From Pontibacter ummariensis (GTDB lineage: Bacteria; Bacteroidota; Bacteroidia; Cytophagales; Hymenobacteraceae): DNA of 64,000 nucleotides. Below are positions 7,448 to 49,351 of this stretch, piece after piece. A program made the translations under genes and the position numbers. The stretch is from the NCBI RefSeq assembly GCF_900188175.1, contig NZ_FZOQ01000001.1:248001-312000 (forward strand), written 5' to 3'. The number at the start of each line of letters is the position of its first letter. Within the stretch, counting starts at the first letter, position 1. The notes under the pieces are model-generated. The model worked only from the letters and a program-made list of their open reading frames with translations. It was not told where the DNA came from and ran no database searches.

Positions 7448-7504
7448 ATTTACAAAAACAGAAGGGCTTCCTGTGTAGCAGGAAGCCCTTCTGTTTTTGT
7501 AAAT
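7448..7504. terminator. Bidirectional rho-independent terminator
   Basis: A perfect 26-bp inverted repeat (7448-7473 paired with 7479-7504) has a 5-nt loop and A/T runs on both sides. It separates the convergent fusion-dehydrogenase gene and the Sde182-like pseudogene, so it can stop transcription both ways. Confidence 0.9.
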
Positions 7505-25097: not shown

Positions 25098-28000
25098 ATG
25101 AAACAACCTGCTCCACTGCCGGCGCAAGTGCTGAAAGCTTTTGAAAAAGTACCGGACCTGTACCTGATTCTGTCGCCGGAACTGGCTATACTTACTGCCT
25201 CGGATGCCTACCTGGCCGCCACCCTTACGAACTGTGAAGAGATAGTGGGCAGGCAGCTGTTTGACGTATTTCCGGACAACCCGATGGCAAAAGCAGCCCA
25301 TGGTGTAAAGAACCTGAAACACTCGCTGCAGCAGGCGCTGGCAACAAAGCAGCCCCACCGCATGGCAATTCAGCAGTACGATGTGCCCTTGCCTGCTGCC
25401 CAGGGGGGCGGCTTTGCAGAAAAGTATTGGCTGCCGCTTAACACGCCTGTGCTGGATGAGCAGGGCCAGGTGCAGTACATTATTCATAAAGTAGAAGATG
25501 TAACCGAACAGGTGCTGCAGGAGAAGCAGGTAAGTACGCTGCATGAGGCCCTTACCGAAGAACGGGAGCTGCGCCGGAAACTGGCCGCCAGCCAGGAGCT
25601 TCACCGAATATCGGAGGAGGTGGCCAGCCTGGGCAGCTACGAAGCCGACATACAGGGCAGCGCCTTTTACTTTTCCGACGGCTTGTACCGGCTTTTCGGC
25701 GAAGAACCCCAGTCGTTTACCCCCACGCTAAGCTGGATAGATGCCCGCTCCAGCCCCGAAGATGCCGCGAAAGTGCGCCGGATACTGGAGCAGGCGGCCC
25801 AGAACAGGCAACCGTATTACTATACCCGCCGCATCCGGCGCCGCGACGGTGAGTGGCGTACGGTAGCATCGCACGGCAAAGTAATTTGCGGTGCGGATGG
25901 CCAGGCCCGTAAGTTTGTAGGCCTGGTACAGGACGTCACCGAAAAAGTATTGGCCGAGCAGGAGCTTAAAACTGCCCGGGAAAACTTGAAAGCAACATTG
26001 GATAGTTCCCCATACTTTATCCAGGCGTTTGAAGCCGTAAGAGATAAAGCCGGAAAGATCGTGGATTTTACCTGGATATTTACCAACCATACCTGGAAGG
26101 AGCATTATGGTGATATGACCGGTAGAAGCTTGTTGCAGCAAAATCCGGCTGTTCTGGCAACGGGTCTGTTCGAAAAATTTGTTGAAGTAACAGAAACAGG
26201 TATTAGCATAGACCACGAGCAATACTATTCGCACGAGCAGTTTCAGGACCAGTGGTTCCATCAGACCCTGGTAAAAATGGATGATGGCTTTGTGATGACT
26301 ACCGAAGACATAACCGACCGGAAAAAAGCGGAGCAGGAAATCCTTCAACTGAAAGATGAAGTAGCACAAAGAGCCACCGATAAATACCAGGCACTTTTCA
26401 AAACGATTGATGAAGGGTTTGCAATACAGGAGGTGGTTACAGATAAGGCTAGAAACGTTACTGATGTAATTTGGCGGGAGGTAAATGCAGCTTTCGAACA
26501 TATCACAGGGATGGAGGATGTGGTTGGCAAAAAGGTAAGCGAGTTTCTTCCCAATCTCGAGCAGGCCTGGCTCGATGCCTTAACACAGGTTTACAAAACA
26601 GGCGAGCCGTTGCGAGGCGAAAGCTATACTGCCGATTTGGGTCGCTGGATTACGTATCAGTATTCACGTATAGGCGAGGCAGGCAGTCCGTTTATTGCTG
26701 TCGTATTCAACGACATCACCGAACGTAAACGCCGAGAACAACAACAAACATTTCTACTTCATTTCTCTGACACGTTACGGACGTTGAAAGACGAACACAC
26801 TATTGAAAATACAAGCTTACAATTACTATCTGAATTCCTAAGTTTGGATCGGGCTTACGTTTTCGTGTTGTATCCATTGGAAGATCGTGCCGTGGTAAGA
26901 TCGGAACAACGAAGAGCAGACCTACTTTCCCTTTTAGGCGAAGTCAGGATGTCTGATTTTCCTGAAACAGTGCGGCAGATCGAAGACGAAACGCTGGTTA
27001 TTAATGACATAGGTACTGACACAAGACTTTCTGTTTTAAATCGCGAATCGCTTGAAGCAGTAAACTTGCAGGCTTTTGTTTGCGCCAGTGTGCGCAAAGG
27101 GGAGAGCAACGTTATCTGGTCGCTTGCCGCAGCAACCACCACACCACGAATTTGGACAAAAGATGAAGTAGCGTTGATTGAAATCGTAGCGGAACGCACC
27201 TGGGCAGCCGTGGAGAGAGCCAAAGCAGAAGAAGCTCTAAAGGAGTCGGAACTAAAGTACCGCACCCTATTTGAGACCATGGACCAGGGCTTTGGCATAG
27301 GGCAGGTGCTGCCAGCAAATGAAGCAGCCGGAGGTAAGGTGGACTGGCAGTGGTTGGAAGTAAATCCGCAGTTCGAGCGCCTAACGGGCCTGTCGCGTGA
27401 TGCAGTGCTGGGCAACACTATGCGCAAGCTGGTGCCCGGGCTAGAGGAAACCTGGTTTACGCAATATGCTAAGGTGGCGGCTACTGGCGAAACGATTACC
27501 TTCGAGGACTATTCGCCCGTGCTCGGCCGTTGGTTTGATGTGTACGTCTATGCTTTGGGTACACCGGAGGAACGCCGAGTGGCTGTGCTGTTCACCAACA
27601 CTACCGAACGTAAACAGCGGGAGCAACAGCAGGAATATCTGCTTCGGCTGAATGATGCTTTGCGCCCTATTGCTGATCCGATGGAAGTTCAACGGGTCGC
27701 AATGCAAGTGTTAGGAGAGCATTTAAGTGTAGACCGGGCAATATATGCTGAGATAAACATTGATGAAGACTGGTTTGAAGCAACAGATAATTATACAAGC
27801 AAGTCCGTTCAAAAAATAACTGGTCGGTTTCCCTTTACTGCATTTGGACCTCCCGGCGAAAAACTCAAAAAAGGTGAAAGCCTCATCATACATGATGTAA
27901 CTGCTGAGGCGGATGATGATTCAAAAAAGGCGTTTTATTCCATGGATGTGCGTGCTGCTGTTGCCGTACCACTCATAAAAAAAGGGAAGTTAGTAGCAGA

Positions 28001-29591
28001 CCTCTCTGTCCACCAAACAAAGCCACGTCATTGGCTTGACCATGAAATTGCACTATTACTTGAAACTGCTGAACGAACATGGGCCGCGGTGGAAAGAGCC
28101 AGGGCCGAAGAAGCCTTACGTGAAAGTGAAGAGCGGCTGCAAAAGGTACTCTCTGTTGAGACCGTGGGGGTAATTTATCTTGATTTGGAGGGAGCTATCC
28201 ACGATAGCAATGCTGCTTTTGAACGCATGAGCGGCTACTCGAAAGCTGACTTAACAAGCGGCCAGGTGCGGTGGGACGAGCTCATACCGCCTGAGTTTAT
28301 CAAAGCCACCTTCAGCTCAAAAGAAGAGCTTATCACCCAGGGGCAAAGCACCCCTTACGAGAAGCAGTACATCCGCCCGGACGGCACCCGCTGGTGGGGC
28401 CTGTTTGCCGGCAAGCGCCTCAGCGACACTGAGTGCGTGGAGTTTGTAGTAGACATCACAGACCGAAAAGAGGCCGAAGAAAAGCTGCAGCAGTTTAATG
28501 TGCTGTTGGAACAGCAAATAGCCGAACGCACCTCTGAGCTAAAGAACACCACCGCAGAACTGCAAAAGAACCTGGCCAAACTACTGCAGGCCGAAGAAGT
28601 AGCCCGGATGGGCAGCTGGGAATATGATGTTGCCAGCTGCGAAATGAGCTGGAGTGCGGGCATGTACCGCCTGTTTGACTTGCCCGCCGGCAGCCCCGTG
28701 CAGCCGGAGATTTACCTGGAACATGCAGTAGAGGCCGATAAGCCCCTGGCGCAGCAGCTAGTAAAAAAATTGCGGGAAAGTTTTGAGCCCCTGGAGGAAA
28801 CCCTTCGCCTGCACGTATCCGGCCAGGTACTTACCCTCCTGGTCAAGACCGTGGTGCAGCGCGACGAGCAAGGGGCGCCGGTTAAGATACGGGGCATCGA
28901 TTTAAACATATCGGAGGTAAAACGGCTGGAAGCAGAAAACCTGCAGATGCGGCTGAACCAGCAAAAAGCCTTGTTGCTGGCTGTACTGGAAGCGCAGGAA
29001 GAAGAGCGCCGGCGCATATCCGAGGCGCTGCACAATGGCGTGGCCCAGATCCTGTACGCTGCCAAACTGAACCTGGAACAGGTAACGCAACAGGTGCCAG
29101 GAGAATTGATTCAGCCTGCCGATAAACTGCTTGGCGAAGCCATCAAAGAAACCAGAAGGGTCTCGCACGAGCTGACTCCTATCATCCTGAATGATTTTGG
29201 CCTGGAAAAAGCCGTGGAACATTTCTGCCGGCAGTACGAACAGAGCCCGGTCAAAGTCAACTGGGAGATAGACCTGGAAGGCCGGCTGGCATCTTTCCTG
29301 GAAACAGCCCTTTACCGCATCTGCCAGGAACTGTTGAATAACGTGATGAAACATGCCCAGGCTACTCAGGCCGATGTATTGCTGGTGCAGGAGGATGGCG
29401 AAGTTACCCTGAAAGTACGCGACAATGGCAAAGGAATAAGCGGGGAGCCAGGTGAAATGAAAGGCATCGGGCTGCGTACTATCACGGACCGGGTGCAGCT
29501 CCTCAACGGCACCTTTTCCATCACCACGCCCAGTACTGGTACAGGTACGCTGGTCACGGTAAAAATTCCGGTGACGGGGGGGGGGGACTAG
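25098..29591 (+). CDS. Multi-PAS/GAF sensor histidine kinase (HisKA_3 type)
   Basis: A 1,497-residue kinase without clear membrane helices, so probably cytosolic. Domains by eye: PAS (about 8-140), PAS_3 (170-290), PAS (300-415), PAS (430-548), GAF (550-705), PAS (715-838), GAF (845-1000), PAS (1010-1130), coiled coil, PAS_3 (1165-1290), HisKA_3 and HATPase. The phospho-acceptor is H1312 in ERRRISEALHNGVAQ; relatives often have HD where this has HN. ATP-site boxes are ELLNNVMKH, VRDNGKG and GIGLRTI. Both GAF domains are followed by nearly the same linker, AERTWAAVERA(K/R)AEEAL. No response regulator is adjacent, so the partner is elsewhere. The gene ends in a G11 tract. Confidence 0.9.
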   Translation: MKQPAPLPAQVLKAFEKVPDLYLILSPELAILTASDAYLAATLTNCEEIVGRQLFDVFPDNPMAKAAHGVKNLKHSLQQALATKQPHRMAIQQYDVPLPAAQGGGFAEKYWLPLNTPVLDEQGQVQYIIHKVEDVTEQVLQEKQVSTLHEALTEERELRRKLAASQELHRISEEVASLGSYEADIQGSAFYFSDGLYRLFGEEPQSFTPTLSWIDARSSPEDAAKVRRILEQAAQNRQPYYYTRRIRRRDGEWRTVASHGKVICGADGQARKFVGLVQDVTEKVLAEQELKTARENLKATLDSSPYFIQAFEAVRDKAGKIVDFTWIFTNHTWKEHYGDMTGRSLLQQNPAVLATGLFEKFVEVTETGISIDHEQYYSHEQFQDQWFHQTLVKMDDGFVMTTEDITDRKKAEQEILQLKDEVAQRATDKYQALFKTIDEGFAIQEVVTDKARNVTDVIWREVNAAFEHITGMEDVVGKKVSEFLPNLEQAWLDALTQVYKTGEPLRGESYTADLGRWITYQYSRIGEAGSPFIAVVFNDITERKRREQQQTFLLHFSDTLRTLKDEHTIENTSLQLLSEFLSLDRAYVFVLYPLEDRAVVRSEQRRADLLSLLGEVRMSDFPETVRQIEDETLVINDIGTDTRLSVLNRESLEAVNLQAFVCASVRKGESNVIWSLAAATTTPRIWTKDEVALIEIVAERTWAAVERAKAEEALKESELKYRTLFETMDQGFGIGQVLPANEAAGGKVDWQWLEVNPQFERLTGLSRDAVLGNTMRKLVPGLEETWFTQYAKVAATGETITFEDYSPVLGRWFDVYVYALGTPEERRVAVLFTNTTERKQREQQQEYLLRLNDALRPIADPMEVQRVAMQVLGEHLSVDRAIYAEINIDEDWFEATDNYTSKSVQKITGRFPFTAFGPPGEKLKKGESLIIHDVTAEADDDSKKAFYSMDVRAAVAVPLIKKGKLVADLSVHQTKPRHWLDHEIALLLETAERTWAAVERARAEEALRESEERLQKVLSVETVGVIYLDLEGAIHDSNAAFERMSGYSKADLTSGQVRWDELIPPEFIKATFSSKEELITQGQSTPYEKQYIRPDGTRWWGLFAGKRLSDTECVEFVVDITDRKEAEEKLQQFNVLLEQQIAERTSELKNTTAELQKNLAKLLQAEEVARMGSWEYDVASCEMSWSAGMYRLFDLPAGSPVQPEIYLEHAVEADKPLAQQLVKKLRESFEPLEETLRLHVSGQVLTLLVKTVVQRDEQGAPVKIRGIDLNISEVKRLEAENLQMRLNQQKALLLAVLEAQEEERRRISEALHNGVAQILYAAKLNLEQVTQQVPGELIQPADKLLGEAIKETRRVSHELTPIILNDFGLEKAVEHFCRQYEQSPVKVNWEIDLEGRLASFLETALYRICQELLNNVMKHAQATQADVLLVQEDGEVTLKVRDNGKGISGEPGEMKGIGLRTITDRVQLLNGTFSITTPSTGTGTLVTVKIPVTGGGD
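29576..29586 (+). repeat. G11 homopolymer at 3' end of kinase gene
   Basis: Eleven G in a row encode the last Gly residues of the kinase. Loss of one G would replace the final Asp-stop with about 29 extra residues ending at a TAA near 29676; gain of one would add about ten. Confidence 0.9.
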
Positions 29592-29641
29592 CGGTAAGCC
29601 CAGGGTTTTCCTTCTAGCAAGGCTCATCAGGGCTGCCCTGG

Positions 29642-29671
29642 CCGGGGTTCCCCCTTTCAGGGAAACCCCGG
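29642..29671. terminator. GC-rich hairpin after kinase gene
   Basis: CCGGGGTT and AACCCCGG pair, extended inward by three C-G pairs past one mismatch, with a 6-nt loop. There is no T run, but it lies between two convergent genes and may stop transcription. Confidence 0.45.
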
Positions 29672-29728
29672 AGTAAGGATGTGCCTGGTTGTGTCTCTAC
29701 CCCTGCTTACCTTTTGCCGGACATGCGC

Positions 29729-30088
29729 TCACAACCGCTGCTCGATCCACTCTACTGCCTCACGGTAAGTCCTGAACTGGCGGACCTGGATGGAGTCGTT
29801 CAGCTCCGCCTTGGCTTCGCCTGCCAGCCTCCTGAACTTTTCCATGTTGGTTTCATCGGTGCTGATGCGGGCCAACCTGGTCAGGGAGGAAGCGGCCGCA
29901 ACAGGCAGTAGCTCAGCAATAACAAACTCAAGCTCTTCCTCGCTCACCCTTCCCAGCTTTCCCGTGTCTTGTATCCAGAAAGCAATGTCTTTGCCACGCA
30001 GCAGCTCTGCCACGATTGTCGCCGCCTCTCTGTACTCTGCCCTGGCAGGCTTACGCACCCACTCAGAGTACAGCAGCTGCCCTGACAC
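29729..30088 (-). CDS. SpoIIAA/STAS-like small protein, apparently missing its N-terminus
   Basis: 119 residues from a GTG at 30088-30086, the only ATG/GTG in the open frame. It resembles a Bacteroidota family of about 140-residue STAS/SEC14-like proteins: LLYSEWVRKPARAEYREA near the start, DIAFWIQDTGKLGRV, LLPVAAASSLTRLARIST, and C-terminal RQFRTYREAVEWIEQ. Relatives have about 20 more residues before LLYSEW; here that place is taken by one arm of a 38-bp inverted repeat, so the N-terminus may be lost or rebuilt. A regulatory or scaffolding role is likely; no catalytic residues are seen. It lies directly downstream of the unknown gene at 30159 on the same strand. Confidence 0.65.
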   Translation of the reverse strand: MSGQLLYSEWVRKPARAEYREAATIVAELLRGKDIAFWIQDTGKLGRVSEEELEFVIAELLPVAAASSLTRLARISTDETNMEKFRRLAGEAKAELNDSIQVRQFRTYREAVEWIEQRL

Positions 30089-30154
30089 GAAAACAAGCTG
30101 CTGGCAAGGGCATCCTTTGCCAGCAGCTTGTTTTCGTGTCAGGGCAGCTGCTGT
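30070..30154. repeat. 38-bp perfect inverted repeat with 9-nt loop
   Basis: Bases 30070-30107 are the exact reverse complement of 30117-30154. The loop GGGCATCCT could itself pair further. The repeat begins 5 bases past the stop codon of the gene at 30159 and covers the GTG start and first codons of the gene at 29729. Confidence 0.97.
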
Positions 30155-30158
30155 TGCC

Positions 30159-31058
30159 TTATCTCAGGTCATATGGCAGCAGGTTCTCCACGCGTCTGCC
30201 CAGCAGACTCTCCCGTCCCTGGCCTACCTGTAAGGGCAACGCCCGCTGCAGCACATCCTGCGGCGCAAGCAGCTCCTCTTCTTCTTTCACCAGTTCCTCA
30301 AACGTAACCTCACCCAGGTAAAGGTTAAACTGATCGGCTGTGGCCGGTGTCACTTGGTCCATCGGGTCTACGTCCATCGAGCGCAGGGTAGGCGAGATGC
30401 GCCTGCTGCTCTTCAGCTTCATGAGCTTAAACAAGGGGGAGATGCTTTGCCGTGCCACTAAGTTAACAACCAGGCCTCTGAAGCTATGCTGGTTGCTATG
30501 GAAGATCTCATTGGCCAGGTCTATGTCTGAGAGGTCAAAATTACCGGATGCCACCAGTTCCGCTTTGGCATTTCGGTGCGTGGAGATAAGCAGGGTACAA
30601 CGGTCGGCATAGACGGCCTCTGTCACCACGGACCAGTTCTTGTCCCACTTGCCTTCTTTGTAGAGCCGGATAACCTCGCTCTGTACATGCGAGAGGTCCC
30701 TGATAGTGGGAGTGCTGGCGCCGTTGGCCCGGAAGATAATGGTGTTGTCCCTGCTGAAATCGATAATAAGCCCTGCTTTATCCTGCGGGATACTACTGCC
30801 CGGGATGGGGGATGCATCGGCTACCTTCGTTGTAATAGCAAAACCATTAGGGGAGCTATACTCCAGGATACCCGGCTGCTGGTCAGACTCCATTTCGAAC
30901 CCGATGCCAAAGTCCTTCAACTCGCTCAGTCTGGTGAAGATGTTCTTCTTGAACACCCCCACTGAGCCCAGGATGATTTGCCTGGTCGGCTCCCAGGTAG
31001 GGATGTAGCCAAACTCCCTTCTCATCTCTCTTAAATAAACTTTGATTGGTGCTTTCAT
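30159..31058 (-). CDS. Unknown beta-rich protein, possible gasdermin-like fold
   Basis: 299 residues, no signal peptide or membrane helix. I do not know a name for this family. The layout is a short N-terminal helix (VYLREMRREFGY), a strand-rich block with LGSVGVFKKNIFTRLSELKD, then FSRDNTIIFRANG, an amphipathic helix, and the hairpin WSVVTEAVYADRCTLLIS (VVTE at 144-147), followed by LVVNLVARQSISPLFKL. That order resembles gasdermin N-terminal domains by eye, including the VVTE strand, but there is no protease gene nearby and the likeness is not proof. The last 70 residues are acidic then basic and could be a separable tail. It is followed by the 38-bp inverted repeat and the SpoIIAA-like gene. 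Confidence 0.6.
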   Translation of the reverse strand: MKAPIKVYLREMRREFGYIPTWEPTRQIILGSVGVFKKNIFTRLSELKDFGIGFEMESDQQPGILEYSSPNGFAITTKVADASPIPGSSIPQDKAGLIIDFSRDNTIIFRANGASTPTIRDLSHVQSEVIRLYKEGKWDKNWSVVTEAVYADRCTLLISTHRNAKAELVASGNFDLSDIDLANEIFHSNQHSFRGLVVNLVARQSISPLFKLMKLKSSRRISPTLRSMDVDPMDQVTPATADQFNLYLGEVTFEELVKEEEELLAPQDVLQRALPLQVGQGRESLLGRRVENLLPYDLR

Positions 31059-31331
31059 AGCTTTTAAGTTAAGTGGATATAAAACAGTTACTATAAAAAG
31101 GCCCTAAACCATAGGGGATTATACGGATAGAGCAGGTGCTTAACCGCAACTTAACTAAGTATAACTACTAGCATACTGGCTTTTAAAAGCTATTTGTAGT
31201 GTTGTAAGTACTTATATAGCAGTTGAATAAGTCATTACGGGTGAAAGCTATAAGCTATTCCCATGGAATGTAAAGCCGTTACCGGCACAGATTCTTTTCA
31301 AGGGGAGGGCTGCATGCCGGGTTTTTAGGAT
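31059..31331. other. AT-rich intergenic region upstream of unknown gene
   Basis: About 270 bases, AT-rich near 31060-31260, likely carrying the minus-strand promoter of the gene at 30159. No gene or RNA is recognised before the transposase relic begins. Confidence 0.4.
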
Positions 31332-31478
31332 CTGCTCGTCATATTGATTTTAGAGCTGGCTGCCGCCCATCCCACTTATGGTTTCCGCAAGCTGCTGGCC
31401 TACCTGAAGAGAGCCGGCAAGCCTGGAACCACAGGCGGGTGTACCGAGTCTACAAGCTGCTCAGGCTCTGGTAAAAAG
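31332..31478 (+). pseudogene. IS3-family transposase (OrfB) remnant
   Basis: The translation gives LAAAHPTYGFRKLLAYLKRAGK and, after a one-base frameshift near 31421, WNHRRVYRVYKLLRLW then TAA. These match the helix-turn-helix region of IS3/IS150-group OrfB (HPxxGFRKxxAYL, WNHKRVYRxYxLL). Only about 50 codons remain, and no inverted ends or DDE core are seen, so it is a fragment. It lies about 115 bases from tRNA-Arg. Confidence 0.82.
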
Positions 31479-37624: not shown

Positions 37625-37670
37625 TTAAACAGCAAGAGGGCCTGTAGCTACAGGCCCTCTTGCTGTTTAA
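37625..37670. terminator. 46-bp perfect palindrome, bidirectional terminator
   Basis: The sequence 37625-37670 is fully self-complementary (centre TAGCTA, arms with GCAAGAGGGCCTG). It has A/T runs on both edges and lies between two convergent genes. Confidence 0.9.
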
Positions 37671-49302: not shown

Positions 49303-49351
49303 ATAAACAGAGAAGCCTTTCCCTGCTATAAGGAAAGGCTTCTCTGTTTAT
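49303..49351. terminator. Bidirectional terminator between unknown gene and trxA
   Basis: 20-bp perfect stem (49303-49322 with 49332-49351), 9-nt loop, with A/T-rich edges, between convergent genes. Confidence 0.9.

Follow-up and report, generated by a model that had tools for sequence, protein, structure and literature searches.

The inverted repeat at positions 30070–30154 of the window (the whole 64,000-nt stretch of Pontibacter ummariensis DNA analyzed here) is probably the intrinsic (Rho-independent) terminator of a gene encoding a 299-aa protein, which would have been overgrown via template switching in DNA replication, with the start of the neighboring open reading frame (ORF) being overrun. 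On this reading, a commonplace element, a terminator, has reached an extraordinary state, and we take it to be an extreme member of a class of fast-evolving terminators, not as a switch or a mobile element. The repeat, which is assigned to neither strand, has perfect arms of 38 bp (30070–30107 and 30117–30154) that leave a 9-nt center, as had been claimed in an earlier analysis of the letters alone (the sequence-only reading). The sole mismatch lies at arm position 39, and the wider arms (30070–30110 and 30114–30154) comprise 41 nt with 98% complementarity and 3 nt between them. For the minus-strand RNA of the 85-nt repeat, folding predicts one dominant structure, a single hairpin of −81.4 kcal/mol (z = −15.3), and none of 200 shuffled sequences folded as well.

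Two minus-strand genes flank the repeat. The upstream one is the 299-aa gene (30159–31058), whose stop codon (30159) is separated from the repeat by only 4 nt, and the hairpin would end its transcript. The downstream one is a 119-aa SpoIIAA-like ORF of the STAS fold (29729–30088). Within the repeat, a core hairpin (30090–30134, minus strand; −31.9 kcal/mol) is bordered by two outer arms, likewise listed on the minus strand, one on the SpoIIAA-like side (30070–30089) and the other on the side of the 299-aa gene (30135–30154). The build of the core, AAAACAAGCTGCTGGCAA...TTGCCAGCAGCTTGTTTT, recurs in other hairpins in the genome, for example GATAAAACAAGAGCGGCAGCCC in L044, and the sequence of the core and the comparison of styles point to a terminator in the style of this genome, with an A-tract and a U-tract (TTGTTTT) paired within the stem. 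Because the core hairpin is symmetric, it could act on both strands. The sequence-only reading had noted the lack of a T run, which proved to be incorrect: TTGTTTT is present on both strands, where it comes after the GC-rich inner stem, yet is itself paired. On neither strand was the repeat picked up by a terminator scan, which requires T residues after the stem. With its position at a stop codon, its GC-rich core, and its A- and U-tracts, the repeat resembles bidirectional intrinsic terminators with paired tracts, and the hairpin class of this genome is, like these, enriched between convergent ORFs. Unlike such terminators, the repeat has arms that run about 20 bp past the U-tract into the next gene, and it is missed by the standard scan. 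We infer that transcription would terminate at the repeat.

No family could be assigned to the 299-aa protein, for which no match was obtained at E ≤ 1 in Pfam, NCBIfam, or PHROGs. The gene is patchily distributed: homologs were found in two of the 49 genus mates (G006 and G034), together with a 71% paralog elsewhere in the same genome, and G046, from the same order, gave a weak match. A hairpin follows soon after the stop codon in three of the four homologs, with unrelated sequences: 25 bp at 20 nt past the stop in L036, 17 bp at 31 nt in L033, and 14 bp at 35 nt in L034. The distant homolog L035 has a 10-bp hairpin only, 163 nt past the stop. Upstream of the 299-aa gene, a fragment at 31353–31472 resembles an IS3-type transposase; its sole Pfam match, to HTH_21, was below the cut-off (E = 0.025).

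A scan for hairpins with arms of at least 14 bp and loops of at most 14 nt covered 857.5 kb of the 5.97-Mb genome, that is, the window and 40 further stretches. It yielded 111 hairpins, among which the repeat is the longest, followed by arms of 34, 34, 33, and 32 bp. In three order-3 Markov versions of these 857.5 kb, 15, 7, and 19 hairpins were counted, none with arms longer than 20 bp. Arms of at least 20 bp were observed 38 times in the 857.5 kb, 13 times in 400 kb of G031, and 12 times in 200 kb of G069, a one-contig assembly. For two genomes that share only the order, the counts were 5 in 100 kb (G040) and 0 in 100 kb (G045), and long hairpins thus occur outside the genus as well, but not throughout the order. 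Textbook terminators are much shorter than a 38-bp stem. The view that the repeat is much longer than a usual terminator holds in comparison with textbook cases, but within the genus, stems of 20–34 bp occur often. The 3' arms of the hairpins in this genome become T-rich 10–20 bases from the loop; the arms of the repeat extend about 20 bp beyond the embedded T-tract, and the next longest extensions in the genome are 13, 13, and 12 bp.

The placement of the 53 hairpins with arms of at least 18 bp in the 857.5 kb was counted relative to mechanically called ORFs. Thirty-two lay between convergent and 15 between tandem ORFs, none between divergent ORFs, 4 at the edge of a stretch, and 2 inside an ORF, whereas the neighboring ORF pairs of the same stretches comprised 84 convergent, 334 tandem, and 82 divergent pairs. 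The two hairpins scored as inside are the repeat itself, counted against a spurious ORF, and L063:5078–5120, a 19-bp hairpin within a 439-aa ORF and the only such case besides the repeat. Further long perfect or near-perfect hairpins of the same class lie between convergent ORFs of the window at 7448–7504, 37625–37670, and 49303–49351.

Foldback copying, homogenization of the arms, and inversion of the loop are presented as marks of template switching in parts of PMC8794818 and PMC8604942. Two sets of comparisons show how hairpin arms change between species. For two orthologous gene ends in 25 genomes each, hairpins with loops of at most 14 nt were called up to 260 nt from the gene end. A hairpin was present in 20 of the 25 genomes at each gene end (the exceptions being L143, L151, L153, L155, and L158 at one and L170, L173, L176, L181, and L183 at the other; by eye, L176 has a 24-bp stem with a longer loop). 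The arms ranged from 12 to 34 bp, some hairpins were more than 100 nt away, and in L135 and L154 the stem extends into the stop codon. The sequence of these hairpins varied by species, and pairing was near perfect throughout.

In the second set, two species pairs with DNA identities of 88.8% and 90.1% in their aligned pieces were compared hairpin by hairpin. Placement succeeded for 32 of 33 and 27 of 29 hairpins, and a partner hairpin was present for 27 (G024/G064) and 24 (G013/G062). For G013/G062, 381 base pairs were unchanged, 13 had changed on both sides and were still paired, and 16 had changed on one side (8 of them to G-T). Among the 24 hairpins compared, exactly inverted loops numbered 3 and identical ones 5. 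For G024/G064, the corresponding values were 366 unchanged, 12 changed on both sides, and 42 changed on one side (7 G-T), the last count being inflated because several hairpins had been matched to a different neighboring hairpin; exact loop inversions were found in 0 of 27, with 7 identical and two loops partly inverted by eye. Pooled over both pairs, two-sided changes (25) were fewer than one-sided changes (58), which counts against template switching, and the same holds, with 13 against 16, for G013/G062 by itself. That loops of 5–7 bases would come to be exactly inverted by chance is improbable. Selection on bidirectional terminators could explain the perfection of the pairing, but not the inversion of loops.

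At one gene end, which was compared in 10 genomes, a common core was recognized by eye in G024, G064, G069, G036, and G000, on which stems of 30, 22, 23, 28, and 17 bp, respectively, are built. Despite the common core, the outer arms of G024 bear no relation to those of G036. Relative to G064, the extra DNA of G024 resembles, by eye, an insertion in one flank only; the reading of the 30-bp stem of G024 as a polarized gain over the 22-bp stem of G064 was withdrawn in view of the 28-bp stem of G036 with its other outer arms, and the difference may reflect gain, replacement, or loss. Taken together, the loop inversions, the concerted changes of the arms, and the lineage-specific outer arms suggest that template switching has left its marks on these hairpins.

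For the repeat itself, the proposed sequence of events would be as follows. The palindrome of the core terminator would form a hairpin in the DNA, and the polymerase would switch strands and copy the first codons of the SpoIIAA-like ORF back onto the opposite side, so that both arms were lengthened to 38 bp. The transcript of the 299-aa gene would then end at the U-tract within the stem, and the outer arms would be of little weight as RNA. If transcription ends there, the outer 3' arm is not transcribed, and its extension would therefore be mutational rather than selected in origin. The direction of copying is likelier to have been from the SpoIIAA-like side to the side of the 299-aa gene: P. 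roseus shares a run of 23 identical nt with CTGCTGTACTCTGAGTGGGTGCG, the DNA that crosses out of the low arm into the ORF. Old coding sequence thus makes up the low arm for at least its outer 7 nt, and the arm beside the 299-aa gene (30135–30154) would more likely be the reverse-complement copy, with 30070–30089 as its source. The sequence-only reading had offered an inverted duplication that rebuilt the gene start as one of three guesses; the duplication has become the likeliest of them, but it would run from the gene start toward the upstream gene and would have rebuilt no start. The mechanism is supported by the hairpin class as a whole, and we infer that a copying event took place at this very locus. 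No unextended sister allele was found among the 49 genus mates, the nearest of which is about 82% identical at one gene, and neither G006 nor G034, the sole genus mates with the 299-aa gene, has it beside the SpoIIAA-like gene.

As the sequence-only reading had stated, the GTG start (30088–30086) and the first codons of the SpoIIAA-like ORF are hidden within the low arm, which ends inside the conserved LLYSEW codons (LLY at 30076–30068). Its second claim for this ORF, a missing N-terminus, is likewise borne out, as 18 residues precede LLYSEW in P. roseus (DSM 17521) and only four, MSGQ, in the 119-aa ORF. The ORF itself has no Pfam match, and its best identity to an ortholog is 58%. Of four SpoIIAA-like relatives compared with PF11964, L031 passes (25.8 versus 25 bits), two stay below the cut-off, and one matches weakly in another family only. 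When the P. roseus relative was modeled (mean pLDDT of 85), its predicted fold best matched the DUF3478/SpoIIAA-like structure 2q3l (E = 4.2e-4) and also the STAS protein 4xs5. In this model, strands at residues 2–5 and 9–14 precede the strand that starts at L19; going by the model, the 119-aa ORF is without its first two predicted strands, and MSGQ alone stands in their place. The next in-frame start is an internal GTG within the EWV codons.

The promoter consensus of Bacteroidota is TAnnTTTG. This motif does not occur between the two genes, and its only minus-strand occurrences lie within the 299-aa gene (30543 and 30306). A scan of 29500–31300 for sigma-70-type promoters gave one plus-strand site and two minus-strand sites, the latter upstream of the 299-aa gene; none of the three lies between the genes. 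The location of its start codon in the stem, the absence of two predicted strands, and the failure to find a promoter between the genes together indicate that the SpoIIAA-like ORF, which no longer has its original 5' end, is probably silent or decaying. That its frame remains open counts against silencing, since an old pseudogene need not have kept it open. We rejected the idea that the 299-aa gene had been inserted into the SpoIIAA-like gene and had split it: when the N-termini of five relatives were compared by tblastn with 12 kb of the window and with the other stretches of this genome, the only clear match among the matches listed was at the place of LLYSEW.

The strongest alternative, which we nevertheless consider unlikely, is an insertion. 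Palindromic elements of Rickettsia insert in frame within genes. Similarly, a palindromic segment of about 72 nt could have been inserted in frame in the SpoIIAA-like gene, the 5' part of which would have been replaced when the 299-aa gene became attached through a GATAA microhomology. Starting at the left flank, GATAAGGCAACA, the reading frame stays open across the repeat (DKAT...QLLYSEW), and this flank agrees, by eye, at 10 of 12 nt with the D-E-A-T codons right before (R)LLYSEW in the G007 ortholog, a match that was found post hoc. Under such an insertion, the outer ACAGCAG/CTGCTGT would be, by eye, an old 14-nt palindrome split midway, and GCAGCTGC borders the inner part of the repeat as an 8-nt direct repeat. 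Against this alternative, the 299-aa gene normally ends with GATAA in any case (the homologs L036 and L034 end with AGATAA), the inner part of the repeat resembles the terminators of this genome, and the genome holds no second copy. An insertion of this kind would lead one to expect 3' flanks of the 299-aa gene elsewhere that lack GATAAGGCAAC.

A regulatory RNA switch, an attenuator or thermometer that masks the downstream GTG and opens under some condition, was another guess of the sequence-only reading, and it is suggested by the location of the start codon within the stem. It is very improbable, as that start is locked in a stem of −81 kcal/mol with one dominant fold, the ORF behind it lacks its N-terminus, and none of the seven SpoIIAA-like relatives has a hairpin (arms of at least 9 bp) over its start. 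All seven Rfam matches to the repeat, to six microRNA models and one sRNA, were below the gathering score. At 3 nt, or 9 nt if only the perfect arms are considered, the spacer bears no promoter, and the repeat is thus not an invertible promoter (inverton). A sequencing, amplification, or assembly artefact, the third guess, is even harder to credit: the assembly is a draft of 80 contigs, but the repeat is located deep within a contig of 465 kb, at 278 kb, and many hairpins of similar build exist here and in other genomes, including a one-contig assembly. REP sequences, MITEs, and the Rickettsia elements are short palindromic DNA, sometimes located in reading frames, as is the repeat; unlike them, it is present in a single copy in its genome and is absent from the 49 genus mates (when 3 mismatches were tolerated, a 27-nt arm was found in 1 of 50 genus genomes, this one alone), and a mobile palindrome was rejected because of this copy number.

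The terminator overgrown by template switching that we favor corresponds to the quasipalindrome mutations treated in parts of PMC7202029 and PMC8794818, with which it shares a reverse-complement copy beside its source and, for the hairpin class, homogenized arms and inverted loops. PMC8794818 covers rRNA and microRNA genes, and the word "terminator" is absent from its text; here, the substrate would be a terminator, and the copy would include the start of a neighboring gene. Inverted repeats are enriched past bacterial stop codons, and spacers near terminators vary more than arms, according to part of PMC13155455. This paper, PMC12207403, and PMC4060949 appear, from the parts available, to be the closest among the matches listed, and neither template-switch growth of bacterial terminators nor long terminators in Pontibacter are described in the titles and abstract openings of these matches.

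Terminators are usually viewed as fixed parts. If replication errors rewrite and lengthen their arms, they would be natural recorders of bacterial template switching, and would both record and cause changes at gene ends. Such changes, mutational in source, would mimic selection for pairing, and they would help to explain why terminators are missed by scans that expect a T run past the stem. Tentatively, and with less than even confidence, we suggest that in Pontibacter, and perhaps in related Bacteroidota, terminator palindromes act as a self-driven mutational engine, with each hairpin seeding template switches by which both arms are rewritten, the loop is inverted, and the arms are extended outward until they overrun genes, the repeat being one case that would have taken in a gene start. 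A gene end of another kind lies nearby on the plus strand, where a 1,497-aa ORF (25098–29591), by eye similar to PAS/histidine kinases, has a run of 11 G residues (29576–29586) at its 3' end; slippage at this run would alter the C-terminus of the protein.
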